Program-made: the position numbers and the translations under genes | The notes under the pieces: generated by a model | Told to the model about the DNA's origin: nothing | Databases searched by the model: none | Seen by the model: only the letters and a program-made list of their open reading frames with translations | Shown here: in pieces, positions 9,499 to 43,124 of the stretch | Layout: each line of letters begins with the position of its first letter | Numbering within the stretch: position 1 is the first letter of the stretch | Assembly: GCF_000027225.1 (NCBI RefSeq) | Contig: NC_013892.1 | Location: forward strand, 1,426,001 to 1,490,000 | DNA length: 64,000 bases | Reading direction: 5' to 3' | From: Xenorhabdus bovienii SS-2004 | GTDB taxonomy: Bacteria; Pseudomonadota; Gammaproteobacteria; Enterobacterales; Enterobacteriaceae

Positions 9499-9616
9499 GG
9501 TATTCTCCTGATAAAACAACGGGGAACACCTGACCCAATAGGAAACGTGTTCCCCGTTGGGTGACTGGCCTGTTGGCCATGATGGTTGAGATTAAGAAAC
9601 CTTCATCGTCATCAGA

Positions 9617-9741: not shown

Positions 9742-9771
9742 TCTGACTACGCTAATAAACGGAAATCATAA

Positions 9772-11971: not shown

Positions 11972-12007
11972 GTTGCTGGGTAACGTAATACGCCTTAGTG
12001 GAGGCTT

Positions 12008-12041
12008 GAGCCGTATGCAGTGAAAGTTGCACGTACGGTTC
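12008..12041 (+). ncRNA. group II intron domain V
   Basis: A 34-nt hairpin begins GAGCCGTATGCAG and closes with TGCACGTACGGTTC around a GAAA tetraloop. It has the classic AGC-containing stem and two-base bulge of the catalytic core. This is the strongest single mark of the intron. Confidence 0.9.
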
Positions 12042-12191
12042 TTAGGAGGACGGCACTTGGTAACAGGTGTCGTCTATCCGACATTGTGTGTTAGTGCCGA
12101 TGGCGTGATGAAATCAGGCACATTATTTAACGCAGAAATACCGCTTGCAGTTTAATGACTGAGACGGTATCTGAATTCTGGATAAGGAATT

Positions 12192-15967: not shown

Positions 15968-17785
15968 TTAAATCTGCATGGAGAAACTTCGTTTTCCCAG
16001 AGTCATAAAATTGCTTGTTTGCACACCTTTGGTGCCTGTTTGCTCCAAAAACAACCCTTCCTCTTTCTGCCTTAGATAACGCTCTGTACCACACTTGCCA
16101 CAGATCGTCTTAAAACCACCAGGAGGCTGGAAAGCAATAGTTGTTTTGTGCTGACAAACCGGGCAGCTTTGCAGAAACAAAATCTCCCGACAACGCTGCA
16201 CGACATCAGAGGCTTTTTCATGTGCGTTCGCTTCTTTCAATGTGCGCTTTAATTTTTCCAAATCGATATCCGCCACTTCACCTTGCACCGTCAGGCAATG
16301 TGATTGATGTTCAACGTGGATATGTGCAATTTTTTCCGCCACGGCTAGCGCTTTCGTCGGAATTTTAGTGATTGGTCTAGCGAAGGATTTCAGAACCTGC
16401 CGGTAAAGGGTTCGATTAATAAGCAGGCCAAAACGTTCGACACAGTACATGTCTGACGGCGAAAGCGCGATCCAGTTATCCACGTAGCCTGAGGGTGATA
16501 GCGCCAAATCCTGAGACGGCCATGCAACAAATCGCTCAGAGGTCAGTTTCGTCTCGTTAATGGGCTCCGCCAGGTCAGTGAGCCACGGAACCAGAATAAG
16601 CAATGTATTACCTGCTGAATTACCCTTCTCTGTCCGGCAAATCAAATGCCATTCCAGCCCCTTTTGTGCGAGTTGCAATGTTTTACCTGCCCACAAACCT
16701 TCGCTTTCGCCCTGCAGATAAGGGTAAAGCGCATGCCTTAATACCAGACCTGCATAACGCGAATAAGCTTCCACCAGATACTGATTATGCCGGAAACGTT
16801 CCTGTGGCGTGGTTTTCTCCACGGTTGTGCTATCGAGAAGTTCCCAAAGCATAGTCAAATGCCGGTAATGCGGGTCATGTCCAAGAATATTTGTTGGATG
16901 CAGTATCCCCGTGACCTGTGCATTGCGGTTAACCAGTGTGTACAACCCCGTTTGTTGCAAACCAGAGAGGGTTTTATGTAACATGTGAAGGGTGTCCACA
17001 GTTTCATTCAGGTGAACCAACGCCTGATTTGTCTTATCCTCATTAAATGTCATTCCCCAGAGCTGACAAACCTCATAGGCCAGAAGGTGATGAGTACCCT
17101 CCGTTTGGTAAAATTCCAGAGCCTGCTCCAGTGTGACCTGCAGGCTTAGAAGGGTCGATAGCCGGGTGCGCAAATGACGTTCTGCCTTATCGAGCAGGCG
17201 CGCATAAACGCGATTTTCATAAATGTCGTAATCGTCATGGCTAAAACGCGCCAGTACCTTCCGGGGAATGACGCCATTGAGTGTCTGCCGCTGCCAGCAC
17301 TCTGAATGCGAGGCCAGATGCACCAGCGCACCTTTCGCAAGACGTCGTGCGCGGGCGATATCCGCGACTTCGTCTTCGTAATGAACATCCAAACGCGGCC
17401 GCTGTGAAATTTGGTGCAGATGCCCTTTCTTCACCACCTCGAGCAAGTTCTGTTCAAATGGCAGAAGCTGGCTTTGCTGGTCAATGATCGCCCCAGGCAT
17501 GAGAGGCGAAATCAACGCTGACGAAGGCATCATGTCCGGATAGATGGTTTCTACCGCCCTGAAAAGTAAGGCGGATTTATTGGACTTAACCTGTCGCGGC
17601 ATGACAAATGTCCGGACCTCATCTCCCAACTGGCAACGCTCGCCGCCATCGCTAACCAGCACACCAGAAAAGTCCGTGGTGTGGCTGTTGAAGACCAAAG
17701 ACGAGACCGCAAGCTGATAACGACCCGCTTCAATCTGTGATGGCAGCTGAGATATTGTTTCACCCGTTAGCCGATCCAGCCACAT
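15968..17785 (-). CDS. DUF2357 zinc-ribbon protein, partner of the McrB-like AAA+ protein
   Basis: 605 residues; last gene of the seven-gene operon. The ATG overlaps the stop of the AAA+ gene (TGATG), so the two are co-translated. DUF2357-like text is seen at ~195-215 (YENRVYARLLDKAERHLRTR). Such proteins partner McrB-type GTPases and AAA+ motors, in the manner of McrC. The C-terminus (~545-590) has a zinc ribbon, CPVCQHK...CGKCGTE. A PD-(D/E)xK nuclease core is expected for McrC-like proteins but I cannot point to one with certainty. Probable role: the target-recognition or nuclease half of a motor-driven DNA-cleaving complex. Confidence 0.65.
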   Translation of the reverse strand: MWLDRLTGETISQLPSQIEAGRYQLAVSSLVFNSHTTDFSGVLVSDGGERCQLGDEVRTFVMPRQVKSNKSALLFRAVETIYPDMMPSSALISPLMPGAIIDQQSQLLPFEQNLLEVVKKGHLHQISQRPRLDVHYEDEVADIARARRLAKGALVHLASHSECWQRQTLNGVIPRKVLARFSHDDYDIYENRVYARLLDKAERHLRTRLSTLLSLQVTLEQALEFYQTEGTHHLLAYEVCQLWGMTFNEDKTNQALVHLNETVDTLHMLHKTLSGLQQTGLYTLVNRNAQVTGILHPTNILGHDPHYRHLTMLWELLDSTTVEKTTPQERFRHNQYLVEAYSRYAGLVLRHALYPYLQGESEGLWAGKTLQLAQKGLEWHLICRTEKGNSAGNTLLILVPWLTDLAEPINETKLTSERFVAWPSQDLALSPSGYVDNWIALSPSDMYCVERFGLLINRTLYRQVLKSFARPITKIPTKALAVAEKIAHIHVEHQSHCLTVQGEVADIDLEKLKRTLKEANAHEKASDVVQRCREILFLQSCPVCQHKTTIAFQPPGGFKTICGKCGTERYLRQKEEGLFLEQTGTKGVQTSNFMTLGKRSFSMQI

Positions 17786-18648
17786 CAGTTCCGTCCCTCC
17801 ATGCGTCGGATATCGGCATTCAGAAATTCCAGCGATTTGACCGGCTCACCTACCAGTTTTTCTCTACTCCAGAAAGACTCCAGCGCCCCTTTCAGTGCCT
17901 TGACGGCATCAACACTCACGTTATAGCGCCCCGTGACTTTACCTGAGCGCATCACGCGTGTTGAAAGCAAATGATCCAGCGCGATACCTTTCATTGCACC
18001 ACTTGCCAGCATAACGGGAATAAAATCCAGCGCCTGCTTTTCAAAACGGTTGCCCCAGCCAAGATTAAACTCGCGGTCAAGGCAATCGGTAAAGCTATCG
18101 CGAGTTAGCGCCTGGAGTAGTTCCGTCACTTCGCCTTTGTGTTTCTGGCGCGCCGCCTCAAATGCTTTGCGCAGTGAACTAAAGGAGTAATGCCTTTTCC
18201 CCATTGGCTTGATCTTAAATTGACTATCCTGTTTTGGTAATGTCATCACGTGCGCACGATCGTAGGTCTTATCAGCAAATTCATTCGTGGTTTCATCATG
18301 GTTAGCGGTACCAATAAACCACACGTTGCCCGGCACGAGGATTTTGCGCCCTTCCCGCAGCATCTGCGGTGCGTTTGGCAACGCCGTCTCAGAGAGGCTA
18401 ATCAAACGTTCATCTGCATTGTTTTTTTCCAGCGCGGACAAAAACTCCGCAAAATATTGCTCAGGCCGTGACAGATTCATCTCGTCAAGCAGGATGACAT
18501 TACAGGTATCCTCCCAGCGTGGCGTACGGGCTTTGTACAATGCCTGTAGACAATCTTTTTCATAGAAGCGTCGCTCAAACGCATTGTAGTGCCCGAGCAA
18601 ATCATCTCTGTCTCGCCAGCCAGCCTGGACGGAAATATCCGTACAAAA
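17785..18648 (-). pseudogene. McrB-like AAA+ ATPase, 3' part (interrupted by IS110)
   Basis: This part resumes with FCTDISVQAGWRDRDDLLGH and carries the Walker B segment VILLDEMNLSRPEQY and the sensor-like FIGTANHDETT, both hallmarks of McrB-type AAA+ motors. Its 288 codons join in frame to the 5' part at 19996 once the insertion sequence is removed. Alone it has no Walker A and no natural start (the first ATG-like codon is internal), so a working motor cannot be made. Confidence 0.85.
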
Positions 18649-18921
18649 TCTATGGTCCCCACCTTTTTTGCAACACTGATTTTTGATTGATGTTGGCTTG
18701 CTTAAATCTATCCGGCGTCACTATGGGCAGGGATGCCCGCGCCTCGATGAGTTCCGCACCTGATAAGCCTAAAAAACCGCACGGCTTCAGAGAGCCATTT
18801 TTTATGTCAGGATTCCATCAGGTCGATAAGCCGTTCATGTCATCAATAATCAGTCTTCGCAAAACCAGATTGGGAACTGCTTTAATTAACGATTAACCTG
18901 CCAGTCAGACTGGCGTCGTCG
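18649..18921 (-). ncRNA. possible bridge-RNA region of the IS110 element
   Basis: IS110-family elements encode a bridge RNA in a non-coding end; in the IS1111 group it lies downstream of the transposase, where this element has ~270 bp of non-coding DNA. Several short hairpins are possible (CCAGTCTGACTGG; CGCGGGCATCCCTGCCC region). I could not assign the donor and target loops by eye. Confidence 0.4.
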
Positions 18922-19926
18922 TTACCTTTCGAACACAGTTTGCCGTGTTGTGATTGCCCAGGCTATCCGGGCTAATTTGTTGGCCAGCGCACAGGCCACA
19001 ACATTTGAGTGTTTTCGCTCAAGCTGAGCCTTTACCCATTCAGCCAGCCTTCCTGACTGATAATCGATTCTCTGGATAAAGACTCTGGCGCACTGGACAA
19101 GTAACCGTCGCAGATTTTTGTCTCCGCGTTTACTTATCCCTAAAAGCGTATTTTTGCCACCCGTGCTGTACTGGCGTGGTACCAGACCGGTTGAAGCAGC
19201 AAAATCCCGGCTACAGCCATACTGCTTACCATCGCCCAGCTGCGATGATAAGACGCTGGCAGTTATCGGACCCACGCCCGGTATTGTCTGAAGACGCTGT
19301 CCTGTTTCATCACGTCTCAGCTCCTGCTCCAGTGCCGTCTCAAGCTCGGTGAGCTGTTCGACAAGATAAAGATAATGGGCATGTAAGCGCATCAGCAACT
19401 GTGCCAGATAGGGAGGAAGTTCGTTCTCTGCCAAGACGGTTGAAAGTCTTTTTATCACGGCGGTTCCGATCGGCATACTGATGCCAAATTCCAGTAAAAA
19501 AGCGTGCATCTGATTAGTGGTTTTAACCCTGTCTCTGACCAGTGATTCTCTGACCCGATGCAGGGCGCGCATAGCTTGTTGCGCCTCTGTTCGTGGTTGC
19601 ACAAATCGCATGGAGGGACGAGATGCAGCTTCGCATATGGCTTCAGCATCCACAAAATCGTTCTTGTTGCTCTTTACAAAAGGACGAACAAATTGTGGAG
19701 AAATCAGCTTCGCTTCGTGACCAAAAGCAGCGATCCGGCGAGCCATAAAGTGAGCACCGGCGCAGGCTTCCATTACAACAGTCGCTGATGGCGATCCCGC
19801 TAAAAACTCCATCAGTCTGGCGCGGGTAAATTTTTTACGCAGCAGGGCCTTTCCTGATTTGTCCTGACAGTGAACGTGGAAAGAATGTTTGCCGAGATCA
19901 ATACCAATAAGCGTAACGTTTTGCAT
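18922..19926 (-). CDS. IS110-family transposase
   Basis: 334 residues from the ATG at 19926 (AGGAG nearby); an earlier in-frame start at 19971 lies too close to the element tip. The N-terminal DEDD RuvC-like domain begins IGIDLGKHSFHVH, continues with VVMEACAGAHF and KNDFVDAEAI, and the C-terminal Tnp2 domain has TIPGVGPITASVL and the serine-bearing DFAASTGLVPRQYSTGGK. These are the IS110 family marks. It appears intact, so the element should be mobile. Confidence 0.93.
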   Translation of the reverse strand: MQNVTLIGIDLGKHSFHVHCQDKSGKALLRKKFTRARLMEFLAGSPSATVVMEACAGAHFMARRIAAFGHEAKLISPQFVRPFVKSNKNDFVDAEAICEAASRPSMRFVQPRTEAQQAMRALHRVRESLVRDRVKTTNQMHAFLLEFGISMPIGTAVIKRLSTVLAENELPPYLAQLLMRLHAHYLYLVEQLTELETALEQELRRDETGQRLQTIPGVGPITASVLSSQLGDGKQYGCSRDFAASTGLVPRQYSTGGKNTLLGISKRGDKNLRRLLVQCARVFIQRIDYQSGRLAEWVKAQLERKHSNVVACALANKLARIAWAITTRQTVFER

Positions 19927-19995
19927 GATGGTCTTCTCCTGAAAGAAACACCCTGCCAGCATACCGCTCACAGGGTGGTGGGGACCATCTCATTA

Positions 19996-21579
19996 ACCGC
20001 CCATCGCCTTTGCAAACGCCTTCGCGAGACTGGTTTTACCCGTTCCGCTAATCCCTTGGAAAATATGTAACTGGCTCATCGCCAGGCCGCCGAGTAATAC
20101 TTGGATCTCTTCCAGCGGATAAAACAGTTCGACATGCTCTTCAGCTTGGGCAATACGGTGCTGCAACTCCGTGGCGAACTGGTTGAGATCGTCAACAGTC
20201 TCAAGCTCCGTTCTTGCTCGATACTGTGTGTCACTATCCATCAGAGACATCGCCGGGAACGGAGTTTGTGTTTTTTGCGCATTAGAGAGGTGCTCGATAC
20301 TGTTTGCCAGTTCATTGATTTGTAATTCCAGCGCATTTTTATGATACTCAAGGGTTCGTTTCTCAAGCGCGATGCCTTGCAGTTCGGTGGCGGCAACACG
20401 TTTGCCACTCAGCTCACGCTTCGTTTCATCTAATTCCACTCTTAATGCATAGCATTGCCTCTCGAGGTTATATTTGCTTTTGCTGAGTGCGTCTTTCTCA
20501 CGTAATAATTCGTCCATGTCCGAGCTTTGCTGTTTACGAATCAGCTCGTTGTTCTCCGCCTGAAAGCGCTCAAGCCGCTCCAGCACTGCGGCGACAGGCG
20601 TGTTCCCCATGGCATGCTTCAAATCCTGAAAGTCTGCATGTTCATTTTTCAGCAGGTCATAATCATCGTAGGCTTTCTGCAACTTCCGCTGCATTCGGCT
20701 TACTTCGCTGCTGTGCCGGCCCAATTCCCGTTCAATTTCATCGCTAACGCGTTTCTGAATATCGTTTTTTTCCGCATCCAGCTCCTTTTCCCACCGTTTC
20801 AGTCGTACCTTCTCGCAATCTACTGCTTTGATACGTTGTTCAATATCCTGCTCGCGCAAGTCCAGCGCACGTACGCGCTCAGCTTCAGCTTCAGTGCAAC
20901 GATATTTGATCGCGTCCAGTTCACTGGATGCGCGATGACGCTCCTCTTCCAGCTGGCGCTTTTCGCTCAGCAGAGTCTGAAGTTGCTCTTGATGCTGGCT
21001 AAGTTGTTGAGCCTGATGTTTTTCAAGCTGGCGCATGGTCAGCGCGTTCTGTTCGGCAAAACCAAACTGCGCGTTAATCTCCCGTTCATTCATTACGCGC
21101 TCTTTCTCTGTCAGTTCAGCGCGTTTGCTTACAATACTGACTTTTTCCTGCTCAACCCCATCTCTGGCAAGTTTTAACGCATGCTTTTCGTCTTCAAGTT
21201 GTTGCTGTTGGCTAGCAAGTCTCTGCGACTTTTCATCGTGGCTGAGTAACCGTTGGCTAACCTCCTTTTGTTCTTCTTCCAGCTTTTCTTTGAGCGTTTT
21301 CATCGCTTCGCACGCCTGGAAAAATTGCATAAGCCACCGGGCAAACGACTCTTCACCTTCTTTTTGGGTACGCGCCTTGATACTTTCCAAGCATTCCCCG
21401 CTCATATCGATATCCAGTGTCATACCAAAGGATGCGAAGAGGTCTGATGCAGAAACAAAAGACGCGCTCAGGGCGACATCGGTGTTAGCTTTTTCTGCCG
21501 CGGCAAGCGGCGGCGTCATTTTTTGCGGCGGTATTTTAGGCGCATTGTATTTCCTATTTTGGTGATTCTTCTTAGCCAT
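19996..21579 (-). pseudogene. McrB-like AAA+ ATPase, 5' part with long coiled coil
   Basis: 528 codons from the ATG at 21579, which overlaps the preceding gene as TAATG. A basic/proline start is followed by a short globular region (~30-90) and ~330 residues of heptad-rich coiled coil (~90-430; SHDEKSQRLASQQQQLEDE is typical). The part ends with the Walker A loop FQGISGTGKTSLAKAFAKAM, cut two residues later by the IS110 element. With the 3' part it makes ~815 residues: a coiled-coil stalk fused to an McrB-like motor, probably assembling rings with the DUF2357 protein. As found it is broken, so the operon is probably inactive at this step. Confidence 0.87.
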
Positions 21580-23072
21580 TACATCCATTCCTCAAATCGT
21601 TCCGTAACACTCAGGGCATACTGAATACTCTCCAGTACACTCTGGGAAGTGAGTTTAACTGCGGTTTTGCCGGTGTAGCTGCTCTGTCCATGGCCGCTTT
21701 GATTACGCAACCTGGCGAGTTCCAGCATTTTTGTTAGTTGCAATTCCCGATCTTCAAGTACGTTGAGCGGATGCTGTGGTGTGTTGTAGGCTCCAATTGC
21801 AGCGGCAAAAAGGAGCGCCTTAAGTGAATCCGTCGGCTGGCGACAGGCTCGCTCAACTTTGTCGAAATGTTGTCCGGAGAGTATGCGAATGACGTCCTGA
21901 GTGAAGGACGGAATGTTCAGTTTCTCAAGGATAACCTGATTGATCGCATTTCTGGTATTTCCCTGTTTATACTTTGGCAACAGCCCCACATTTGCCGGGA
22001 AGGTACGAATCAACCATTGCATGACGACTTCCAGTAATTTCTGGCACTCCGTTATTGCAGCTTCCAGTTCGTGTTCGTTGGCGCCAGCATGCTGAATTTT
22101 TTCTCGGTAGATCAACAGCGCCGTCATGTAACGCTTGATATCAGGCTGCTTCTCGGCCCACGGGTATTCCGTGAGCAATGTAAATTCAATATTTCGCTGA
22201 ACAGCCGCAAGCCACTCGGTAACACTTTGGTTTTCGGCTTGAGGGATCTCAACCAGCGGTTCAAGCCTTCTAAGCAAAAACGCGTCACGCTCAATGACCT
22301 GCCGCAATGCCTCTTGCAGCCATGGCGCATTTTCTCGCAAAGCAAAAGGGTCTTTTACCGACCAGAGATCCGCGCCACGCTTGTCGGGCGTAACCCAGAT
22401 AAGTACCCGAGCGGATTGAGGATTATCATCCAAACGCTGTACGCCCTGTAGTCGAATTTCCGGCTCTAACCGTAACTGATCGAGCTGTCGGCTGGCACGA
22501 AAATCATTGCTATAGTTTTTATACGCCTTCATAAGCACGTCAGGATCCAATTGCGCTAAACGACCTTTGTTGGAGGCCACCACATAGGGACGCAGCGGTT
22601 TTCCGGTCTTTCTCTCAGTGATGAATTCAGGATACTTGGCTAACGCGTTCACGGGTTCAATCTGTTTGAGCTCAGTAATCAGACGCGGCCAAAATTGCCC
22701 AGTGACAGCATCCTGCAACAGGTAACCGGATTTAAAAGAAGCTGCATCATCGTCCTCATCATCCAGCAGACGTTCTCCTGAAGCGGTGAGAGCGTCTGCG
22801 TTATCAACAAGCCACCCGTGGCTGGCGCTTTGCACCAATATCAAGTTAATTAAACTGGAATGGAGTCCAGTCAACTCCGCCATGGTTTCAGGACGGGTTA
22901 CGCGGGCCCGAATAAGCCCCAGCACCGCTCGCTGGAAAATATTGAGCTGTGGGCGTTTTGCGTCCGGGTATAAAACGCGATGCACCATCACCGGCCACAG
23001 AAGCGGCTCCTTCTTCCCATACGGATGAGAACTGAACGCCATATACGTACCGGTCTCAGCGAACACTGCCAT
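21579..23072 (-). CDS. unknown protein with winged-helix start and C-terminal HEPN-type RNxxxH motif
   Basis: 497 residues from the ATG at 23072, which has GGAGG five bases upstream; the longer frame starting at 23129 would overlap the helicase by 74 bp. The N-terminal ~100 residues look like a winged helix (FQRAVLGLIRARVTRPETMA, GLHSSLINLIL). The middle (~130-330) is unassigned. About 40 residues from the end, ARLRNQSGHGQ contains RNQSGH, an exact fit to the RNxxxH motif of HEPN RNases, in a helical context with a further helix behind it. HEPN proteins cut RNA in many defence systems. No family is recognised over the full length, so RNase activity is inference. Confidence 0.6.
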   Translation of the reverse strand: MAVFAETGTYMAFSSHPYGKKEPLLWPVMVHRVLYPDAKRPQLNIFQRAVLGLIRARVTRPETMAELTGLHSSLINLILVQSASHGWLVDNADALTASGERLLDDEDDDAASFKSGYLLQDAVTGQFWPRLITELKQIEPVNALAKYPEFITERKTGKPLRPYVVASNKGRLAQLDPDVLMKAYKNYSNDFRASRQLDQLRLEPEIRLQGVQRLDDNPQSARVLIWVTPDKRGADLWSVKDPFALRENAPWLQEALRQVIERDAFLLRRLEPLVEIPQAENQSVTEWLAAVQRNIEFTLLTEYPWAEKQPDIKRYMTALLIYREKIQHAGANEHELEAAITECQKLLEVVMQWLIRTFPANVGLLPKYKQGNTRNAINQVILEKLNIPSFTQDVIRILSGQHFDKVERACRQPTDSLKALLFAAAIGAYNTPQHPLNVLEDRELQLTKMLELARLRNQSGHGQSSYTGKTAVKLTSQSVLESIQYALSVTERFEEWM

Positions 23073-26000
23073 ACACGCCTCCGCAAAGTTGGTAGAGTGC
23101 CGCCAGCGCAGGAACCGCTTCTTTTGCATCCGGATTAGTTACCAGCACAGCATCACCCACACAGATCAACATTTGACGTTGGCGGCTCATGGCCACGTTC
23201 ATACGATTGGGTAAACGAAGAAAACCAAACCGGCGATTTAACTGGGCTTCCCGCGCGGCTGCATCATCCTGAGCCCCTAAGGCTGGCTTAGATGGATCAA
23301 AGGTACGAACGCATGACAGTAACACCACATCAAACTCCTTCCCTTGGAACGCATCGACAGAGCCGACGCGCAGCCGCTCTTCATAGCTGATGGAGCCATC
23401 GCCCCGCACTTTTCGCGCTAACCGAAAATCTTCATGAGGCTCGAAACTGCCATCACGGGGTTCCATTAAGGGAACCCCGTCAATACGCACCTGGGCGAGT
23501 TTCTCCATAATCAAATCCCGCTGCGCCGCGTAAAATGTGATGACGCCTATAGAGAAGCTTTCCCCTCCCGCTCTTACCAGCCGTTCAACTTCCTGTGCAA
23601 TACGCGTGGCTTCTATCTCGCGCACACGGCTGGATCCGTGAGTCCTATCTTTTCCCTCAGACCGCGGCAGATCAATCCACTGACAAACGCGATCTCGGAA
23701 GTAAGGTTCCAACTCCCCAAGCGCATTTAACATTTTCTCATCAAAGGCAAAATCTGCCACATCCCGACCGGATTTCACCTCTCGCATGCCCGCTGATTCA
23801 TAAAATTGCTTACTGATAAAATTGCCCAGCACAGGATGCATACGAAACTGAGTATCCAGCATAACGACCCGCGGCCACTGATCTCTCTTTTCCAGCTCCA
23901 GCAGTTTTAACCGCATACGTTCGAACAGGCTGGAGTGAAATGCCGCCCGTTGCACCTCGGTAAGCTGATGTTCTTCCTGCAATTGTCCTTCGATATCGGG
24001 CTCCAGCATATGCGGCAGCTGCTTGTCGTCACCGACCAGCACTATGCGCCGCCGGGCCATCGACATGGGGACAAACAAATCCAGCGGATTGGCGCGCGCC
24101 GCCTCATCAACGACGACGGTCTCAAACTCAATTCCGCTACTATCCAGCCCAGCGACGGATTTCAAATTCGCCATTTGTTGTCCGGCGGCCTGCTGACAGG
24201 TCGCACCGACCACCATTGAGTACTCATTCACCACGTTTTGCGCAGCACGTCTGTCAACCGTCAGGCTATCAGCCAATTGCTCGAGAACCCAGGCCACACC
24301 TTGCTTGCGCTGGCGCAACTTACCGTCGAGATGCCGCTCGATGTCATCAAGTAGCGCCAACCCTGCCGGATCAGCCTGATTTTTTAGCGCCACAGGCCGG
24401 TAATCCGGTAAAAATTGCTCCAGTAAGTGCTCCCGCCACATAGAAAGTTCATGGAAGTCTGACGTCGATAATGAAAGGTTATCTGCCGCCGCCTGTAACA
24501 GCGACACCCGTTCTGGAGCGCAATCCAAGTCATAACGCTGTATCCAGCGCAAAAGATCCCAAGCGCGATCGGAACCATCGTCGTTGAATGAAACAGCGTC
24601 AACACGTAACGCACGAATTCGCTGTATCAGTTGATTATCGATTGCACTGTCGGTTGTATCCGACGCTTGTTTGCGCAATTGCTCAATGTAATCTTCAAGC
24701 TGGCTTTTAAGCATGGATAACGGAATTGAGCCGATTTTTTCCAGTTCTTCCAGATCCTGCAAAATAGCGCTGAACTCCTCAGCACGGCGGCTATTCGGGC
24801 CGCCAGCCAAGCGGGCAAAGGCCAGCTTGATGGATAACCTGTTGAAGAACTCAAGCTCCGGGTATCTGGCATGTTCATCCCGAACTTTGCCGTGCAAATG
24901 CATGGTCTGCTGTTCGAGCCAGGAATCGATCAACGACTCATCGTCATCCGCTCTGTGTTTGCCGCCCACACGTGCGCCAGGCAGACCAAACACATCGCTG
25001 CGCTCGAGCGCGTTATCGACAGCATCATGTTGAAAGCTACTGATCAATACCTGCCCTGCGATATTCTGGTTTTGCGCTTCTTCGGCCAGACGACGCTGTA
25101 ATGCCGCGATAACCTGTGTTTTACCGGTTCCCGGCGGCCCAATAATGATTGCCAAATCAGGCGTATTCAGAGCCGCATCCAGCGCTTGTTCCTGCATTTC
25201 TGTCGGCTTGCCGCCTTTGAAAATTTCTTTTGCGTAGGGCGTCAATCCCGGGATGGTTCTGTACCGGGCGGCAGGCACAGGAATACCTTCTAACAGCCAT
25301 TTTAATTGCGGCATCCGTTTGCCCGAATCGATCTTTTGTTTCGCGGCTAGACGGCGTTTACCCGCAGTACGGTAGCCCGCCAAAGAGAGATACAGCCACC
25401 CGTCAGGTTGTTTCGGACGAATATCACGGCGGTTAGACGCGGGTTTGAAGAAGACATAATCAGCTTCAAAACGTAGCATGCCACGCGGAATATTGGCCGC
25501 CGCTCTGCTCTCATCCATCGAAAGTTCCTCTGCCCAATCTGGAGCAACCGTGCCTAGGTCATATTGCGTATCCGCAGGCAGTTCGAGTTCACGCAACCGT
25601 TTTTGGAACTCCCGGTAGTCATCGAGCGATTTCGGCGTCAAACGCCAGGCATTGTCTTGCCCCTCATCCACCCCCACACAATCGATAAAGCGCAGCGAAC
25701 GCAGGGATTCAGCACGTCTCAACTCGTTTTGCCACTCTTTTTCGTTATACAGATTCCACAACTCTAGGTAACTGGTATTGTCCCTGAGAGCCGCATCCAG
25801 TAATGCTTGCTGGCTGGCACTTTTTTTGAGTACTACCGCAACAGAGGTATCACAGAAAGAAAACTGGCCAACCAGCAACGAAAAAGCGCTGTCACTACGC
25901 AGGTGGCGCGTAACACGTTTTATCAAAAGCCCACCGTCGCTCTTGCGCTCTACATCAGCACGCCAGCCTTTGCCAATAATCTGAAAGCTGCCTGCTATGC

Positions 26001-26454
26001 TGTTATTACTGAACCGAGCAATCGTGAGCCAGTCCCCCTCTTTCAGCCCACTAACCACAAAATTTTCAGCAAACCATTCGCAGGCAAGGTCAATACGCTT
26101 ATCGGCAATCTCCTGTTTTCCGTACAGATCATCAGCAATGAATTCATCAACACCCAATTCAAGCTGCATAGCGGATACTTCAACCGGCGTACAATACTGC
26201 ACCCATAGTTTTCCCTTTTGCTGAAGGAGGGTGAGCCGCCAGCGAACCTGATCGCACAGCACAAGGCGACTGAATAACTCATGATCGGCAGGACCGCAGG
26301 TAATGCTAATGTACTTATTGCCCTGAACGGCCAACCATTTCTGCTCATCAGGCCGGATAAAAATCGCCTGTTCCGCCTCAAAGCCATCCGTACTCTCATC
26401 CGTAGACAGCACCAGAATATCTTCGGACATCATCGGGAAATCGTTAATATTCAT
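23056..26454 (-). CDS. SF1 DNA2/UPF1-type helicase
   Basis: 1132 residues. All main superfamily 1 motifs are visible: Walker A GPPGTGKTQVI (~440), a Q-rich AAA_11 region, Walker B VVVDEAARANPLDLF (~780), motif III VGDDKQLPHML (~805), DTQFRMHPVLG (~870), and motif V/VI VDAFQGKEFDVVLLSCVRT (~1035) with MNVAMSRQRQ (~1090). The first ~400 residues form an unrecognised N-terminal region, perhaps for target binding. It lies six bases after the kinase stop. It probably unwinds or translocates on DNA or RNA as part of the complex with the AAA+ and HEPN-motif proteins. It looks intact. Confidence 0.88.
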   Translation of the reverse strand: MNINDFPMMSEDILVLSTDESTDGFEAEQAIFIRPDEQKWLAVQGNKYISITCGPADHELFSRLVLCDQVRWRLTLLQQKGKLWVQYCTPVEVSAMQLELGVDEFIADDLYGKQEIADKRIDLACEWFAENFVVSGLKEGDWLTIARFSNNSIAGSFQIIGKGWRADVERKSDGGLLIKRVTRHLRSDSAFSLLVGQFSFCDTSVAVVLKKSASQQALLDAALRDNTSYLELWNLYNEKEWQNELRRAESLRSLRFIDCVGVDEGQDNAWRLTPKSLDDYREFQKRLRELELPADTQYDLGTVAPDWAEELSMDESRAAANIPRGMLRFEADYVFFKPASNRRDIRPKQPDGWLYLSLAGYRTAGKRRLAAKQKIDSGKRMPQLKWLLEGIPVPAARYRTIPGLTPYAKEIFKGGKPTEMQEQALDAALNTPDLAIIIGPPGTGKTQVIAALQRRLAEEAQNQNIAGQVLISSFQHDAVDNALERSDVFGLPGARVGGKHRADDDESLIDSWLEQQTMHLHGKVRDEHARYPELEFFNRLSIKLAFARLAGGPNSRRAEEFSAILQDLEELEKIGSIPLSMLKSQLEDYIEQLRKQASDTTDSAIDNQLIQRIRALRVDAVSFNDDGSDRAWDLLRWIQRYDLDCAPERVSLLQAAADNLSLSTSDFHELSMWREHLLEQFLPDYRPVALKNQADPAGLALLDDIERHLDGKLRQRKQGVAWVLEQLADSLTVDRRAAQNVVNEYSMVVGATCQQAAGQQMANLKSVAGLDSSGIEFETVVVDEAARANPLDLFVPMSMARRRIVLVGDDKQLPHMLEPDIEGQLQEEHQLTEVQRAAFHSSLFERMRLKLLELEKRDQWPRVVMLDTQFRMHPVLGNFISKQFYESAGMREVKSGRDVADFAFDEKMLNALGELEPYFRDRVCQWIDLPRSEGKDRTHGSSRVREIEATRIAQEVERLVRAGGESFSIGVITFYAAQRDLIMEKLAQVRIDGVPLMEPRDGSFEPHEDFRLARKVRGDGSISYEERLRVGSVDAFQGKEFDVVLLSCVRTFDPSKPALGAQDDAAAREAQLNRRFGFLRLPNRMNVAMSRQRQMLICVGDAVLVTNPDAKEAVPALAALYQLCGGVYGSVR

Positions 26455-26460
26455 GAGGCC

Positions 26461-27876
26461 TCACCACTTGAATTGCCAAAGCACGTGCGATGCGTTCAAC
26501 TCACCGATATGAAGCTGAAACGCCGTAGCATTTTGTCCGCGCAGACTCGCTTTCAGCCCCTGATAGCGGGCTAACTGCTTAATGGTTTTGCCCTGTTGCA
26601 GGTGCAACTGCCCCTGCGGCAAAGCATGGATGCCCAGACCCTTTTCGGTATATTCAAGACGAACATGATCTTCCGGCCAGCGATCGTAGCTAAAGGTAGG
26701 TAACAGACGTTTTAATTCTTTGCGATCCCCCACTTGCAACCATACTTTACGCCCAGTCGGGATCCAGTTAACCTGCTCGCTGAGCTGATCCTCACTGCCT
26801 TCTACGACGGAGAGGAACTCCTCGAACAGCACCAGCTCGCTTTCCACCGGTTCATCACAAAAGAAGCAGAGCGTGTCATGAGACGCGACATCTTCAGCGG
26901 GGAGATCAGCAGGGAGAATAGTATCGCCACCGCAGTGTTTGCAGGTGTACAAATGCTCATCGATTTCTGTTAATGCCGCCAGCCATTCAGCCATAGTCGG
27001 CCTGTCGCTAGCGCGAATTCTTCCCTGTTCAAAGCAACGGCTAAACAGTTCTGGCAGCCGACTGTGTTCAATCAGCTGCATGGGCAGGCAGGTATAACAG
27101 CGATTTGACTCATCCTGTCCGTCATTGATCCATGGATGCTCGCCGCGCAGCGCTTCCTCTTCCAGTTCCGGCTCGCCGTCGCTAATCACCTCTCCTTTAA
27201 AGGGATGATTATGCGTCAGCAACTGATAAGCGATAACCGCAAAGCTCCAGATGTCCGTCAGGCTGGACAAAAGCGCCTCCCCCCGGATGACTTCAGGCGC
27301 GCCATAATCAGGCGTATGAAACGTCAGCCCACTGTGCGTGAACAGGCTAATATTGTCACAATCGATAAGCCAGGTTTCAGCGTGTTTCGGGTCATCCGAG
27401 ACAAAAATATTACCGGGAGAAAGATCGCCGTACAGCATGCCACGCGAATGAAGCTGATTAAGCGTTCTCGCCAGCTGGCTCAAAATTCTCACGCGTCGAC
27501 GCAACCCACCCGCCTGAAGATAGTCGGCCAGCGACTCTTCCCCGGCGTTGAGAAAGCTGTCAAGAAGACTCTGCAAAGGCACCAGACCATCCATTAGCTC
27601 CATTACATAACCGCAGCGAGGCTCCGCCAGCAGCGCAACGGGACGCGCTAATTTCAAATCACTCAAATCTTGCCTGATTAGCCATGCGATCTGATTTCGC
27701 CAGTGCTGGCGAGCCAGCTCATCTTTATTGGTAAACCCTTTAATGAGTGTTTGCGGAAACTGAGTGCGGTAGATAATGCCCTGTCCCCCGCGGCTCATTT
27801 CCCTTTTAAGCTCATAAAACGAACCTTTTGTATCCTGCACTTCGGGTTTCTTGCTTGTTTTCGTTGTCGAAGTCAT
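26461..27876 (-). CDS. serine/threonine protein kinase with zinc ribbon (TerY-P triad type)
   Basis: 471 residues. The kinase domain (~15-285) has a glycine-rich loop in MSRGGQGIIYR, catalytic loop LYGDLSPGNIFV (~149; the HRD aspartate kept as YGD), a DFG equivalent LIDCD (~170) and YGAPEV. A zinc-binding module follows (~313-342), TCKHCGG...CFFCDEP, then a ~120-residue tail. Kinases with such metal-binding tails accompany vWA and PP2C proteins in the TerY-P triad. It starts five bases after the phosphatase stop. The substrate is unknown; the obvious candidates are the vWA protein and the downstream effectors. Confidence 0.87.
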   Translation of the reverse strand: MTSTTKTSKKPEVQDTKGSFYELKREMSRGGQGIIYRTQFPQTLIKGFTNKDELARQHWRNQIAWLIRQDLSDLKLARPVALLAEPRCGYVMELMDGLVPLQSLLDSFLNAGEESLADYLQAGGLRRRVRILSQLARTLNQLHSRGMLYGDLSPGNIFVSDDPKHAETWLIDCDNISLFTHSGLTFHTPDYGAPEVIRGEALLSSLTDIWSFAVIAYQLLTHNHPFKGEVISDGEPELEEEALRGEHPWINDGQDESNRCYTCLPMQLIEHSRLPELFSRCFEQGRIRASDRPTMAEWLAALTEIDEHLYTCKHCGGDTILPADLPAEDVASHDTLCFFCDEPVESELVLFEEFLSVVEGSEDQLSEQVNWIPTGRKVWLQVGDRKELKRLLPTFSYDRWPEDHVRLEYTEKGLGIHALPQGQLHLQQGKTIKQLARYQGLKASLRGQNATAFQLHIGELNASHVLWQFKW

Positions 27877-27881
27877 TTTTT

Positions 27882-28574
27882 TCAGTCCATTCTAAAAAAA
27901 CCAGCAATGCTTTTGTCATCGCCATGCTGGGGCGTCGACCAGTTCTGCAATTCCTTTGTCAGCCATGTACGCATCTGGCGTTTATTGCTGCGGAGTTGGC
28001 GTTGATAAATCACATCGAAAAAGGATTCCAGCGATTCAGGAACCAGATCATCGGCGATACCGTCAGTCATCATCAGTACGCCATCGCCGGATTGGGTTAA
28101 CTCAATCCGTTGGCTTCTGCACTCGGAAGGGGCAGCCTGAGCAAGAGTTGCCGTCTGGTTGCCGAATCCAGCTCGGACACCAGACAGCACGTTAAAAATT
28201 CCCTGGCTTTTTATCAAAACCAAACCATCACCAATTTGCCCCGCCACGCCATGACCTTTCGCGTCTACCCATGCCCAGAGACAGGTTGTTTCATAGGCTT
28301 GGTACTCATCGCCAAAATGCGCAAGCCAGTCGCGACATAACCACTGAGCAATGTTGCTGTGTTGTAAGTTTTGCCCCCGCTGGGCCAAATGCCTGATTAG
28401 ATGAACGGCCTTACGTGAACCGATATGACTTAAAGGTCGACTACCCAAGCCGTCAGCAACAGCAATACTCCAGCCACCGCGTAAGCCGCTAATGGACAAA
28501 GCATCCTGGTTAGGAAGACCATTCTGAAGATGCGCTGGACCTGTCACAGAAGCACCACCTGCGGACAGGCGCAT
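27882..28574 (-). CDS. PP2C-type protein phosphatase
   Basis: 230 residues from the ATG at 28574, which overlaps the vWA stop as TGATG; an upstream TTG is less likely. Metal-binding PP2C motifs are in order: NQDAL (~24), VADGLGSRPLSHIGS (~42), GQIGDG (~114), MMTDGIADD (~172) and HGDDKSI near the end. It should dephosphorylate the kinase, the vWA protein or both, giving a reversible switch. Position between vWA and kinase genes is that of the TerY-P triad. Confidence 0.88.
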   Translation of the reverse strand: MRLSAGGASVTGPAHLQNGLPNQDALSISGLRGGWSIAVADGLGSRPLSHIGSRKAVHLIRHLAQRGQNLQHSNIAQWLCRDWLAHFGDEYQAYETTCLWAWVDAKGHGVAGQIGDGLVLIKSQGIFNVLSGVRAGFGNQTATLAQAAPSECRSQRIELTQSGDGVLMMTDGIADDLVPESLESFFDVIYQRQLRSNKRQMRTWLTKELQNWSTPQHGDDKSIAGFFRMD

Positions 28575-29245
28575 CAGAATTCCCAATCCTGATCGTCAGC
28601 GGCAGAAATCTGGAGTGGTGTTGATTGCGTGGGATTCGCTGACCGGCTCTGCACGCTTACGCTCATGGTCACCGCCCTGAAGAACCGGCGAATGTCGCTC
28701 GCATTCTCAGCTCTGAACAGAGGAGCTTCGGGATCATTTGCAAACTCACTGAGCATATCTTCATCCGCGTCCCCACCGATGCTCATGGCAAAACGCGTAG
28801 CTTTGGAAGAACGCTCACCACTGGCAAATGACGAGAACGGGCCTTCCCAGTCATCATTTGGATAACCATCAGAAACCAGCACCACAACTGGTTTGTATGC
28901 TCGGGAAGGAATGACGCTTTTATCCTCTATCATCTGGCTGGCCAGCGACAGAGCGCCGCCAAGAGGCGTTGAACCTTCTGCGCTCAGAGGAATAAAGTCT
29001 TGCAGAAGATGTGCAGGCGCCAGCGGTAAATTTACTTCAGCCTTGTTATTGCCAAAGGTAATCACGCTAACCTGAATTTCAGCGCGCAATCTGCTTTCGT
29101 CTTTGAAACTGAGCAGCATATCTTTCAGCCCCTGATTAAGGGCTTCAATTTTTCCATCGGAAGCCATACTGCCACTGGTATCCGCCAGCACAATAACTGG
29201 GAGCGGACGTGCAGTTTGAATCTGAAATTTTTTAAGCTCTGCCAT
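28574..29245 (-). CDS. TerY-like von Willebrand factor A protein
   Basis: 223 residues from the ATG at 29245 (AAGGGAA seven bases upstream; a longer frame to 29323 would start upstream of the sigma-54 promoter and is rejected). A full MIDAS metal site is seen: DTSGSM (~20), the threonine in STPLGGAL (~90) and SDGYPNDD (~125). The tail (~190-223) is Ser/Thr/Gln-rich and ends DDQDWEF, a likely phosphorylated or flexible segment. TerY-type vWA proteins serve as adaptor and sensor in tellurite-resistance and TerY-P systems. It is the first gene of the operon, ~28 nt after the predicted transcription start. Confidence 0.85.
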   Translation of the reverse strand: MAELKKFQIQTARPLPVIVLADTSGSMASDGKIEALNQGLKDMLLSFKDESRLRAEIQVSVITFGNNKAEVNLPLAPAHLLQDFIPLSAEGSTPLGGALSLASQMIEDKSVIPSRAYKPVVVLVSDGYPNDDWEGPFSSFASGERSSKATRFAMSIGGDADEDMLSEFANDPEAPLFRAENASDIRRFFRAVTMSVSVQSRSANPTQSTPLQISAADDQDWEF

Positions 29246-29280
29246 GTGTATATTCCCTTTTTGTTGATTGACGAATACAG

Positions 29281-29300
29281 TAAAGCACACTTCGTGCCAA
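29281..29300 (-). promoter_or_regulatory. sigma-54 promoter of the seven-gene operon
   Basis: On the minus strand TTGGCACGAAGTGTGCTTTA holds the -24 GG and -12 GC with exactly ten bases between, close to consensus TGGCAC-N5-TTGC. It lies 36 bp upstream of the vWA start codon, downstream of a gene for a sigma-54 activator on the same strand. This makes activator-dependent, tightly off-by-default expression likely. Confidence 0.85.
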
Positions 29301-29462
29301 CTTTTAAAAAACAATAATATCAATAATTTAAATGAATTAAATTATCAAATCATGAAAATAAAAATAAATAAAATTACCGCAAAGTAAAATTTTTTACCGA
29401 TATTATTCTAAATAACATCCCTACGATGGATTAAAATCAACGCTCTGAAACGCGATCGCTAC

Positions 29463-29488
29463 AGGGTATAGAGAATTAAATTTACCCT
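29463..29488. promoter_or_regulatory. candidate activator-binding inverted repeat
   Basis: AGGGTA and TACCCT are separated by 14 bp, ~165-190 bp upstream of the sigma-54 promoter, the usual enhancer distance. A third AGGGT lies at 29503-29507 and partial TACC boxes near 29375 and 29396. The intervening DNA is AT-rich, good for looping. Confidence 0.45.
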
Positions 29489-29515
29489 AAGCGAGAAAAT
29501 AATAGGGTCATGGAC

Positions 29516-30997
29516 TTATTCTATCTGATGTTTTTTTAGCCAGTTCGTAAAGGTTTGTTGGCTTTTTAACCCCAGTAACTGCGCTGCATGAGTCTTATTA
29601 TTTCCGGTGACTTCAAGTGCACGATATAAATAATCGTTGGCAATTTTTGAGATGACTTTTTGCAAATCTATCCCCTCCAAAATATCAACCAGCGATGTAC
29701 CTTGTTGTTCCTCAGGGATCATAAACAAAGCCTCCTTAATATCATCGGCAGTGATAACCGCATCCGGACTCCAGATCGCTGCGCGCAACAGCGTTGAATG
29801 CAATTCACGTACGTTGCCGCGCCATGGACACCTGAGGATAAAGTTTTTAGCTTCAACAGAAAGTTGTTTATTTTGTAGCGATTGATCTTGTTCCGAAATG
29901 CCCTGTAGGAGGGTATCTGCAAGTAGTAAGATGTCCCCTTCCCGTTCACGTAAAGGCGGAAGATGCAGTACACCTACTGCAATACGGTAAACAAGATCTG
30001 CCCTGAAACGCCCTTTACCAACCTCTTGCATCAAATCGCTGTGAGTTGCAGTGATAAGACGCACATTCACTTTAACTGGTTCACTCGCACCAACCGGGGT
30101 AATGACTCCTTCCTGTAACACGCGTAACAAGCGAACCTGCACATCGGGTTTTAACTCGCCAAACTCATCAAGAAAAAGGGTGCCGCCATCGGCCTGTTCA
30201 AAAACACCTTTGCTGTTTGATACCGCGCCGGTAAATGCTCCCTTGCAGTGACCAAAGAGCGTAGAATCTACCAACTCAGGGGGAATCGCACCGCAGTTGA
30301 TGGCAATAAATGGGGCGCTAGTGCGCGGACTTGCATTACAAATGGCCCTCGCGAACATCTCTTTACCTGTGCCCGTTTCGCCATAAATAAGTACAGGCAC
30401 ATGTTTGGTGGCTAAAATTTGAGCTTGCGACTTCAGTCTTAACATCCGTTTACTTTGGGTAATAATACTGTCGAAGGCAGTATTCACCGCTACGCCATAA
30501 GCAGAAAGCTGGACTATCTTTTCATCGCTAATGGTATTTGCCGCCGGAATATATTCGGCCGCAATTTCGAACGGAATGTCCACCTTCTCTACGCCTTTCT
30601 CAGGCGATGACTGGTAGAAAGTCGCTGAGTAACGTGTTTTACCAAGCAGTACCCATACAGCCTGCATGGCAGGTGTACCGGGAGTCAGTTGAACGCATAA
30701 CTCCGAGCCGGAGGCAACAATATGCTGTAGATGTTTATTTGCCGCCTCATAAATTTCGCCAAAGTGAACTGGTGAACTGAGCGCTTCGAAATGCGCGGTG
30801 ACAGGAAGGTTAGTCTGTTTGCGAAGCCATGCAAGATAAGGCGTAACACGCCGCTCAGGATAAGAATAGATAAGATAACAGCGGTCAAATTCAGAATCTT
30901 GTAGCGTCGCCAGAATCGGTCCAATCTCATCATTTTCGGCGGACTCTATATCTTTATTGCCTATCCAGCAAATTAGTACACGTGGCTTCTCAATCAA
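29516..30997 (-). CDS. RtcR-like sigma-54 activator with CARF-like sensor domain
   Basis: 493 residues with a TTG start behind GAGGAAAG. The N-terminal ~170 residues have a Rossmann-like pattern (VLICWIGNKD, CYLIYSYPE, CVQLTPGTPAMQAVWVLLG), resembling the CARF domain of RtcR, which senses cyclic or linear oligonucleotide or RNA-end signals. The central AAA+ domain has Walker A GETGTGKEMF (~205), GAFTGA (~255) and FLDEFGEL. The C-terminus is a Fis-type helix-turn-helix (NNKTHAAQLLGLKSQQTF). It directly precedes the sigma-54 promoter and should activate the operon when a nucleotide signal appears. Confidence 0.85.
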   Translation of the reverse strand: MIEKPRVLICWIGNKDIESAENDEIGPILATLQDSEFDRCYLIYSYPERRVTPYLAWLRKQTNLPVTAHFEALSSPVHFGEIYEAANKHLQHIVASGSELCVQLTPGTPAMQAVWVLLGKTRYSATFYQSSPEKGVEKVDIPFEIAAEYIPAANTISDEKIVQLSAYGVAVNTAFDSIITQSKRMLRLKSQAQILATKHVPVLIYGETGTGKEMFARAICNASPRTSAPFIAINCGAIPPELVDSTLFGHCKGAFTGAVSNSKGVFEQADGGTLFLDEFGELKPDVQVRLLRVLQEGVITPVGASEPVKVNVRLITATHSDLMQEVGKGRFRADLVYRIAVGVLHLPPLREREGDILLLADTLLQGISEQDQSLQNKQLSVEAKNFILRCPWRGNVRELHSTLLRAAIWSPDAVITADDIKEALFMIPEEQQGTSLVDILEGIDLQKVISKIANDYLYRALEVTGNNKTHAAQLLGLKSQQTFTNWLKKHQIE

Positions 30998-31578: not shown

Positions 31579-32496
31579 TTATTCATCCTCAATATTCTGG
31601 CAATACACCTGCCGGATATAACGCCCGCGCCCATCTCCGTGCCCCAAATCCATTGACACCAGTGCCAGCGCTTCCCGCTCACTGAAACCCTGTGCTTTAT
31701 AATGTGCGCCAGATTGTTGGGCAAAATGATATCGCATGCTGTGTGGCGCTTGCTTACCTACCAGTCCGGCACGTCTGACCACGTAACGGTAACGGTCTAT
31801 CGCCTGATAGATCGTGGGCTTATCAATTAATCTGCCGCTGCGGCCTGCCTGTTCGCGCTCAGCATAATCAATGGCGTGGTGCAACGCTACGCGATCGAGT
31901 ATGACCGTCTGTCTCGGGCGCCCGCCTTTGGTGCCGAATACTATCCGCACGGAGGTATGACCGTTCTCCAGCGCTTTTTTCCAGGTGGCTAAGGATTTAC
32001 CGGCTTCCACCGCTTCTTTGGTACGCAGCCCCAACACATACGCCAGCTGCATTACCGCTGCCACACCCCGATCTTTTCGCTCGACCTGCTGAAAAGCCGC
32101 CTGAAATCCCGTCGGTGTTAACGCCATTTTTGTTCCCCTGCGATCCGTATTAGCAATACCCAGTACCCGGTTGCTCAGACGCGGATTATCGGCTGCCGCC
32201 AGCTTGTGTTTTCCGGCCTGCGCTAAAATGGTTCGCAACGCAGCCATCTCATTTTGCAGGGTTCGGTGGCTGATATGGTCAGCCTTTCTCTGTGCAATGT
32301 AGTGCTCAATATATTTTGTTTTAAGGCTGTCCATCTGCCGGAGCTTAATGCCCCTTTCTTTCAGAAAGTGAAGAAACTGCCGGGCAATCCGCTCACGATC
32401 CGCCACCGTCGCAAAACTTCCGTGCCCGTTTCGGGCACAGGCAATAAATTCTTTCCTGAACAACTCAACTTTTGAACGTGTCGATTTCTGCGCCAT
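31579..32496 (-). CDS. tyrosine recombinase with Phage_int_SAM_2/Integrase_1 domains
   Basis: 305 residues. The N-terminal SAM-like part (~20-100, ERIARQFLHFLKERGI) and the catalytic part with Arg in LGLRTKEAVEAG (~153), HSMRYHFAQQ (~262), LGHGDGRGRYIRQVY (~287) match the integrase-domain proteins that recur inside ICEs and plasmids. The box residues are variant (HSMRY for HxxRH), so activity could be specialised. It is distant from the attachment site and so is unlikely to be the ICE integrase. The start codon lies just before a CTCC-type (GGAG on the minus strand) site. Confidence 0.8.
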   Translation of the reverse strand: MAQKSTRSKVELFRKEFIACARNGHGSFATVADRERIARQFLHFLKERGIKLRQMDSLKTKYIEHYIAQRKADHISHRTLQNEMAALRTILAQAGKHKLAAADNPRLSNRVLGIANTDRRGTKMALTPTGFQAAFQQVERKDRGVAAVMQLAYVLGLRTKEAVEAGKSLATWKKALENGHTSVRIVFGTKGGRPRQTVILDRVALHHAIDYAEREQAGRSGRLIDKPTIYQAIDRYRYVVRRAGLVGKQAPHSMRYHFAQQSGAHYKAQGFSEREALALVSMDLGHGDGRGRYIRQVYCQNIEDE

Positions 32497-32890
32497 CCTC
32501 GCATCTCCTGCTGCTTTGCTGCTGTTTTATTTATTTTTAAACAAATCCCTGCGTGTCGGTTCAGGTTCACCGTTCCGTGGTGCGTCAGACAATGTGTAGC
32601 AGGGCGAGGTTGTGTTGAGTTTTTGCAGGAGCTCGCGACGTGCTCAGCACAGCGATGACATGCTCCCCGTTCAGTGCCTGATTCAATCAGGATGAACGCC
32701 TCATTATCGTGACGTGGATAATTTCTCCTTTTTTCGGTATCAGCCTGTTGCCAGGCAGTGGGTTAAAAAAACAAACGAAACAGGCCGATTCAGACAGAAA
32801 AATGCCCGAGATAGCGGGTTACTTTGAGTAATGAGTGGATCAAATGGGTTGTAAAGCCAGTCCGGACGTGCTCTGGACGTTGGCCGCCCG

Positions 32891-41016: not shown

Positions 41017-41052
41017 GCCATCAAACCCTCACAACAAGGAGTCAAGCAAAAC

Positions 41053-43119: not shown

Positions 43120-43124
43120 ACTCA

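Follow-up and report, generated by a model that had tools for sequence, protein, structure and literature searches.

A 64,000-nucleotide stretch of the Xenorhabdus bovienii SS-2004 genome (contig NC_013892.1, positions 1,426,001 to 1,490,000; hereafter the window) carries, at 15968–30997 on the minus strand, an operon of seven genes preceded by a gene for an RtcR-like activator. A first-pass annotation read these minus-strand genes as encoding a VWA protein, a PP2C phosphatase, a kinase, a superfamily 1 (SF1) helicase, an RNxxxH protein, a McrB-like AAA+ protein and a DUF2357 protein, and proposed that, with the adjacent activator, they form a candidate new defence system. Open reading frames (ORFs), translations and profile searches confirm that the operon is real and bear out this list, and its parsing into a TerY-P triad (VWA, PP2C and kinase) and a McrB/DUF2357 pair is the right one. 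The proposed novelty does not hold: judged by gene content, gene order and motifs against the published description, the operon is a copy of Type II CoCoNuT, a system described together with RtcR by Bell et al. in 2024 (PMC11090510); a prior description of the gene set is what the first-pass annotation had named as refuting its proposal. Very probably the locus holds an anti-phage Type II CoCoNuT together with its RtcR-type regulator, riding as cargo on an element that resembles an integrative and conjugative element (ICE), and it is most likely disabled by an insertion sequence (IS) of the IS1111/IS110 type in cnuB.

Gene content of the operon

The features of the operon and its upstream region are as follows, in the direction of transcription.

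29516..30997, minus strand: RtcR-like activator, with CARF, sigma-54 AAA+ and Fis-type helix-turn-helix (HTH) domains (PADLOC, Pfam)
29284..29299, minus strand: sigma-54 (-24/-12) promoter-like site TGGCACGAAGTGTGCT, 1 mismatch to consensus, 38 bases to the VWA ATG
28574..29245, minus strand: TerY-like VWA protein, MIDAS motif DTSGS...T...D (Pfam VWA 3.5e-11; translation)
27882..28586, minus strand: PP2C phosphatase (Pfam PP2C_2 1.3e-45), ORF from TTG 28586, with ATG 28574 the likelier start
26461..27876, minus strand: Ser/Thr kinase with C-terminal zinc ribbon CKHC...CFFC (Pfam Pkinase 7.1e-16)
23056..26454, minus strand: CnuH, UPF1-like SF1 helicase (Pfam AAA_11/AAA_12; TIGR00376; PADLOC MkoA)
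21579..23072, minus strand: CnuE, winged HTH (wHTH)-type protein with one HEPN RNase motif, RNQSGH (RxxxxH) (alignment)
19996..21588, minus strand: 5′ part of cnuB, coiled coil to Walker A (GISGTGKT) (ORF, comparison with relatives)
18649..19995, minus strand: IS1111/IS110-type insertion sequence inside cnuB, ends ATGGTCCCCACC / GGTGGGGACCAT (ends and transposase)
18922..19971, minus strand: IS110-family DEDD transposase gene (NF033542 E 8.9e-105, 350.6 bits, cut-off 140)
17785..18648, minus strand: 3′ part of cnuB, Walker B LLDEMN and NxD motif NHDE (identity to relatives)
15968..17785, minus strand: CnuC, DUF2357/McrC-N homologue with C-terminal zinc ribbon (Pfam, alignment, motif)

The tight gene spacing reported earlier stands at most junctions, where the likeliest starts place neighbouring genes 5–6 bases apart or in overlaps of 1 to 17 bases, and fails between the RNxxxH and DUF2357 genes, where the insertion lies. 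The RtcR gene ends 270 bases upstream of the VWA gene. The VWA start is most likely ATG 29245 and not that of a longer ORF from TTG; the sigma-54 site lies inside the longer frame. VWA proteins of 23 relatives share 62–78% identity with it and align from residue 1 in 20/23, and the VWA–PP2C overlap in relatives has a median of 1 base. CnuE most likely starts at 23072, as in relatives, which makes it shorter than its longest ORF.

A search with CnuE returned at least 119 proteins, its own included, and a 30-row alignment chosen from these led to 23 loci in genome contigs of Pseudomonas, Stutzerimonas, Aeromonas, Aquitalea, Marinobacter, Marinomonas, Marinospirillum, Massilia, Endozoicomonas and other hosts; the contig scan reaches near kin first because it requires conserved peptide patterns. 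The genes for VWA, PP2C, kinase, CnuH, CnuE, CnuB and CnuC stand in this order on one strand in all 23 loci, retrieved with CnuE alone, as expected of the single co-conserved system that had been proposed; the VWA gene of one locus (L008) is cut by a contig end. Apart from cnuB, the genes in the window have the lengths seen in relatives. In Aquitalea pelogenes (L004 5211-10014) the kinase and CnuH each occupy two frames, from a frameshift or a sequencing error, and the rest of the CoCoNuT is complete.

The first-pass annotation had also suggested looking for TerY-P triads that lack the effector genes, and here the outcome is mixed. A VWA match at E ≤ 1e-20 occurs in four of 368 other gammaproteobacterial genomes (G847, G734, G602 and G744). 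Three of them (G847, G734 and G602) have PP2C, kinase and CnuH within 10 kb of VWA; CnuH is truncated by the contig end in G847, and a 6-kb distance separates VWA from PP2C in G602. In the 12.4 kb of G744 that were read, VWA has no CnuH, CnuE or CnuB near it. At E ≤ 1e-15, the CnuE profile detects only G734 of the four, so co-occurrence in this sample is looser than among the 23 loci. CnuE itself was found in none of 29 other Xenorhabdus species searched, it is matched (E ≤ 0.001) in six of 393 other genomes within the order, one of them strongly, and four plasmid records carry it at 24–33% identity. When the DNA of the whole operon was searched, the best 20 of 313 plasmid records and the best 20 of 264 Escherichia coli records covered only the IS, and no plasmid or E. 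coli record covered 80% of the query.

The first-pass annotation missed that the RNxxxH protein is, on its motif and alignment, the HEPN RNase CnuE, an identity from which the predicted target of the system is RNA. The single RNxxxH is invariant in 30/30 alignment rows, the window's own included, and stands 36 residues before the protein end; this count concerns the motif, and a degenerate second HEPN is possible. Some CnuE relatives carry PF24409 or PF18735. The kinase motifs and the four cysteines of its zinc ribbon are invariant in 19/19 alignment rows (the window and 18 of the 23 loci, from 24 sequences available).

For CnuB, profile positions 120-429 and 168-393 of the relatives match myosin and SMC coiled coils (E 0.00035 and 0.00076; profile matches only). 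CnuC has 605 aa and a C-terminal zinc ribbon, CPVC...CGKC, whose four cysteines are invariant in 24/24 sequences; its DUF2357 match is weak (19.1 bits versus the Pfam cut-off of 23.3, residues 123-213). No informative structural match was found for the part of CnuC expected to hold an inactivated PD-(D/E)xK fold, a Type II trait. Structural comparison of CnuC returns chiefly helical bundles and coiled coils, Foldseek against the PDB gave nothing at E ≤ 0.001, and a CnuC profile found no match among PDB sequences. The N-terminal part of CnuH was modelled, by structure prediction and structural comparison, as OB, toxin-like and OB/stalk domains; this order agrees with the SPB, RTL and OB/stalk domains of the published CnuH (PMC11090510), with all structural Z scores below 8. 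Foldseek of the CnuH N-terminus against the PDB returned nothing at E ≤ 0.001, and CnuH scores 128.8 bits against TIGR00376 (IGHMBP2 family), below the cut-off of 348.9.

The RtcR-like activator and its candidate promoter

The CARF-like sensor assigned to the activator is supported: the protein matches the PADLOC model RtcR_PspF2--CARF_AAA_HTH (E 6.8e-210) over residues 6-493 of 493, and Pfam Sigma54_activat at 2e-64. Its score of 319.2 bits falls below the NCBIfam equivalog cut-off of 650 for RtcR of RNA repair. In 19/23 loci a full-length RtcR relative (43–66% identity) is encoded upstream and on the same strand, at ≤340 bp in five (L013, L015, L016, L020 and L022) and at 9.7–27.6 kb in 14. 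The relative is downstream in L024 and downstream on the other strand in L017; none was found in L003 at E ≤ 1e-60, and L008 stands on a contig of 12 kb.

The proposal of a sigma-54 promoter for the operon also gains support, from the one-mismatch site before VWA. In the comparison with relatives, a site was counted if it kept GG and GC unchanged and had no more than two mismatches. The window holds three sites with ≤1 mismatch to the consensus versus 3.3 expected; since such matches are no commoner than expected, position and conservation carry the weight, and not the existence of a match. When the 400 bp ahead of the VWA gene were shuffled 200 times by mononucleotide, no equally good site arose. 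A site with ≤2 mismatches lies within 120 bp before the VWA start in 12/22 relatives (L008, where VWA is cut, was left out), compared with an expectation of 0.019 per 120-bp window at the rate over all loci, or about 0.4 of 22. At the six other gene starts, the count at ≤2 mismatches is 0 of 22–23 each, with two sites at three mismatches. Seven of the 12 site-bearing relatives have RtcR 10–28 kb upstream, four have it adjacent, and the twelfth is L017.

Several points weigh against this interpretation of the site. Five of the 22 relatives (L003, L004, L011, L018 and L023) have no sigma-54 site within 400 bp at up to three mismatches; the loci counted are related to each other, with L009 and L010 near-identical; and the other gene starts used for comparison mostly fall in coding DNA. 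A conserved dyad upstream of the promoter that might bind RtcR was sought in 14 loci (near-duplicates L006 and L010 were dropped, six others had no site in the scanned window, and L008 is cut), and none was convincing. A GTAAA-N4-TTTAC dyad occurs in three loci and two further dyads in two loci each, which exceeds or equals the maximum of 2 in 20 shuffles, but these dyads are AT-rich. The window's own AGGGTA-N14-TACCCT dyad was found in no other locus of the 14.

Control of CoCoNuTs by RtcR was predicted by Bell et al., who also inferred the cyclic-phosphate ligand from RtcR; the main text of that paper uses the word promoter once, for internal RtcR-independent promoters (PMC11090510). The sigma-54 site before VWA may thus be unreported in the literature that pairs RtcR with CoCoNuT, and its conservation makes the proposed control directly testable by reporter.

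HEPN RNases cut RNA, and RtcR senses RNA ends. In intact relatives, a signal of RNA damage, namely RNA ends with a 2′,3′-cyclic phosphate, would most likely bind the CARF domain, and RtcR would then switch on the sigma-54 promoter before the VWA gene by acting there directly. The VWA protein, phosphatase and kinase would set the phosphorylation state of the machine, and a CnuB–CnuC GTPase complex, with the CnuH helicase, would engage a translation-linked RNA target and deliver CnuE to it. Cleavage by CnuE may generate more signal, giving feedback. The host genome contains two full matches to RtcB and one fragment with three stops (429035-430162, 476964-478160 and 2730687-2731040; L149-L151), and these RtcB genes are relevant to RNA-end signalling.

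The same parts could serve mainly in a response to RNA damage or stress, or in stabilising the mobile element, and not mainly against phage. The response of RtcR relatives to RNA ends, the two full RtcB genes and the position of the operon among conjugation genes fit such a role. We nevertheless regard it as improbable, given the association of CoCoNuTs with restriction systems (PMC11090510) and the phage resistance conferred on PAO1 by a cloned 'CoCoNut Type II' in 2025 (PMC12735699), a system compared with the present set by name.

The insertion sequence in cnuB

The first-pass annotation treated the McrB-like gene as one gene. It in fact comprises two open frames: 19993-21588 covers the stretch from the coiled coil to Walker A, 17785-18600 carries Walker B and NxD, and between them sits an IS110-family transposase gene that had gone unmentioned. 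The 1,347-bp element at 18649-19995 splits cnuB after Walker A: the 5′ part ends shortly after this motif and reads into a TAA of the IS end, while the only start of the 3′ piece is an internal TTG. In all 23 relatives CnuB is a single frame of 803–863 aa with Walker A, Walker B and NHDE (NxD), motifs that in the window are spread over the two pieces. The DNA of seven relatives, printed at the insertion point, shows cnuB continuous and free of the insertion.

A McrB-type AAA+ protein needs Walker A and Walker B in one domain. The cut falls between these motifs of one AAA+ domain, so neither piece has a full nucleotide site, and the GTPase in this host is most likely dead. The system would then most likely be off or reduced. 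With cnuB being one frame in 23/23 relatives and no second cnuB found in the genome, this CoCoNuT copy is probably disabled, as read from a single assembly.

Could the copy still work, with the CnuB pieces assembling as a split protein or readthrough keeping enough function? Both pieces are open frames that resemble relatives, the C piece at 65–82% identity to 22 of them and 53% to L024 and the N piece at 31–49%; the other genes are as long as in relatives; and the transposase gene is oriented like the operon. These points count against a disabled copy, but the divided nucleotide site, the stop of the N piece at the TAA of the IS, the lone internal TTG of the C piece and the missing second copy make a working system here quite unlikely. 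The preferred reading, a disabled copy, makes this locus unsuitable as a working example of the system.

The element resembles the IS1111 group of IS110-type elements, which have subterminal inverted repeats with 7-bp and 3-bp extensions and a fixed target (PMC11187229). It has 12-bp inverted repeats with a 7-bp left and a 3-bp right extension outside them, an IS110-family transposase and a fixed target, here G(C/T)GGT|TTTT; its placement follows the description of the group and not named members (PMC11187229). Exact copies of its left end number 20 in the genome, and those of its right end 23. Fifteen of the 20 left ends are standard and 13 were examined, the tandem followers L055 and L065 being left out; G(C/T)GGT precedes 12 of these 13 (L071 reads GCGTT), and TTTT follows 22/23 right ends. 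The idea that the IS seeks DNA coding for P-loops (Walker A) was rejected, as the sites elsewhere read G(C/T)GGT|TTTT.

For five of the 12 distinct left flanks (L057/L066, L067, L069, L071 and L073), 96 or more of 100 mononucleotide shuffles fold less well; the other seven, the cnuB site included (32/100 shuffles as good), do not stand out in this way. A terminator-like hairpin ends at the insertion point in five of the 12 (genome copies L055-L097), which may mean that a guide RNA is aimed at intrinsic terminators. In five copies (L058, L062, L068, L072 and L074) a different, shared left flank, with AGATACAAG as its last bases, abuts the inverted repeat in place of a target sequence and forms no hairpin; these copies are perhaps a longer isoform. 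Tandem copies or repeated right ends lie at genome positions 649-652 kb, 741-743 kb and 1836-1839 kb. A readily reversible switch is not supported by analogy with ISEc11, a member of the IS1111 group for which the rejoined target was undetected when circles formed (PMC11187229).

Genomic setting and comparison with known systems

Beyond a tRNA-Phe gene and a tyrosine recombinase gene comes an island that encodes the conjugation proteins TIGR03755-03757 and TraC PFL_4706; by this arrangement, an ICE-like element most likely carries the operon as cargo. Other features of the window are listed here, with strand where assigned.

561-2312: DsbD gene (96% identity to DsbD of Xenorhabdus bovienii)
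3033-3108: tRNA-Phe
3444-4472: tyrosine recombinase
9598-9754, minus strand: Rfam STAXI RNA match, over gathering score
9963-12082, plus strand: group II intron (Rfam 9963-10101 and 12006-12082)
10877-11971: maturase-like ORF of the group II intron (TIGR04416 247.9 bits, below cut-off 300)
32583-32715, minus strand: Rfam EFASI RNA match, over gathering score, upstream of an integrase-like gene at 31579-32496
39259-43919, plus strand: type VI secretion genes (TssF, VgrG-like, DUF4123) between island conjugation genes
48720-51977, minus strand: surface protein of the inverse autotransporter/invasin-like kind, containing Big_1 repeats; part of the island

The published Type II CoCoNuT comprises an RtcR-like CARF/sigma-54 activator, the TerY-P triad (VWA, PP2C and a zinc-ribbon kinase), CnuH, CnuE, CnuB and CnuC (PMC11090510). 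The present locus has the same eight genes in the same order, with RtcR directly upstream as in one of the two published arrangements, and the same NxD coiled-coil CnuB, CnuE with one HEPN motif, zinc-ribbon CnuC and zinc-ribbon kinase; it differs in having cnuB split by an IS, and the promoter-like site before VWA is shown here (PMC11090510). A new, unnamed defence system that joins TerY-P to McrB, helicase and DUF2357 proteins under RtcR control might be argued from the profile search in PADLOC 2.0.0, which matched defence models (MkoA, MkoB, PDC-M26A and RtcR_PspF2) and none named CoCoNuT, but the 2024 description and the 2025 test leave that reading scarcely credible, and the question of novelty is answered by a published name.

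Assignment to Type III-A CoCoNuT, with which the locus has TerY-P, CnuH, CnuE and coiled-coil CnuB in common, is just as implausible, as that type has two HEPN domains and an Hsp70-like CnuCD (PMC11090510), whereas CnuE here shows a single HEPN motif and a Pfam search found no Hsp70 domain in the zinc-ribbon CnuC.

Stand-alone TerY-P defence triads have the same VWA, PP2C and kinase genes in a row; here the triad is embedded in a larger operon, and the kinase ends in a zinc ribbon in place of the OB-fold of the stand-alone triads that have been tested (PMC11090510). The RtcR–RtcAB RNA repair regulon has the same activator architecture of CARF, sigma-54 AAA+ and HTH beside a sigma-54-like promoter, but the present activator precedes a defence operon, with no rtcA or rtcB beside it within the window.

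Mokosh type I consists of a fused kinase–helicase, MkoA, and MkoB, and the PADLOC spans agree with this. The kinase and helicase of the window match successive MkoA profile positions, 10-226 and 485-1081, and MkoA is the best PADLOC match of CnuH (E 1.2e-79). At E ≤ 0.1, CnuE matches only MkoB (7.7e-9), while both CnuB pieces match only PDC-M26A; of the 30 CnuE rows, every one hits one MkoB model (E ≤ 0.001, best 1.1e-13) and nine hit a second. Against this kinship, the kinase match to MkoA is generic, with better scores for the MAD6 and PD-T4-6 models. Unlike the fusion of Mokosh type I, kinase and helicase have a gene each, both in the window and in 23/23 relatives, and CnuB, CnuC, VWA and PP2C are added. 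By profile comparison, the relation of CnuE to MkoB is one of homology and not of Mokosh membership.

The main text of PMC11090510 does not use the word Mokosh, and one paper that names both Mokosh and CoCoNuT treats them, in its passages on the two, as separate systems; the kinship of kinase, CnuH and CnuE with MkoA and MkoB may have gone unremarked in the literature searched. We tentatively consider a wider scheme, somewhat less likely than not, in which the operon has its own VWA sigma-54 promoter, conserved even where RtcR is 10–28 kb away, RtcR is a direct switch acting at a distance and amplifying itself through cyclic-phosphate products of the HEPN RNase, and the kinase–helicase–wHTH core is a dispersed Mokosh. 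The kinship suggests that lessons from either system may carry over to the other.

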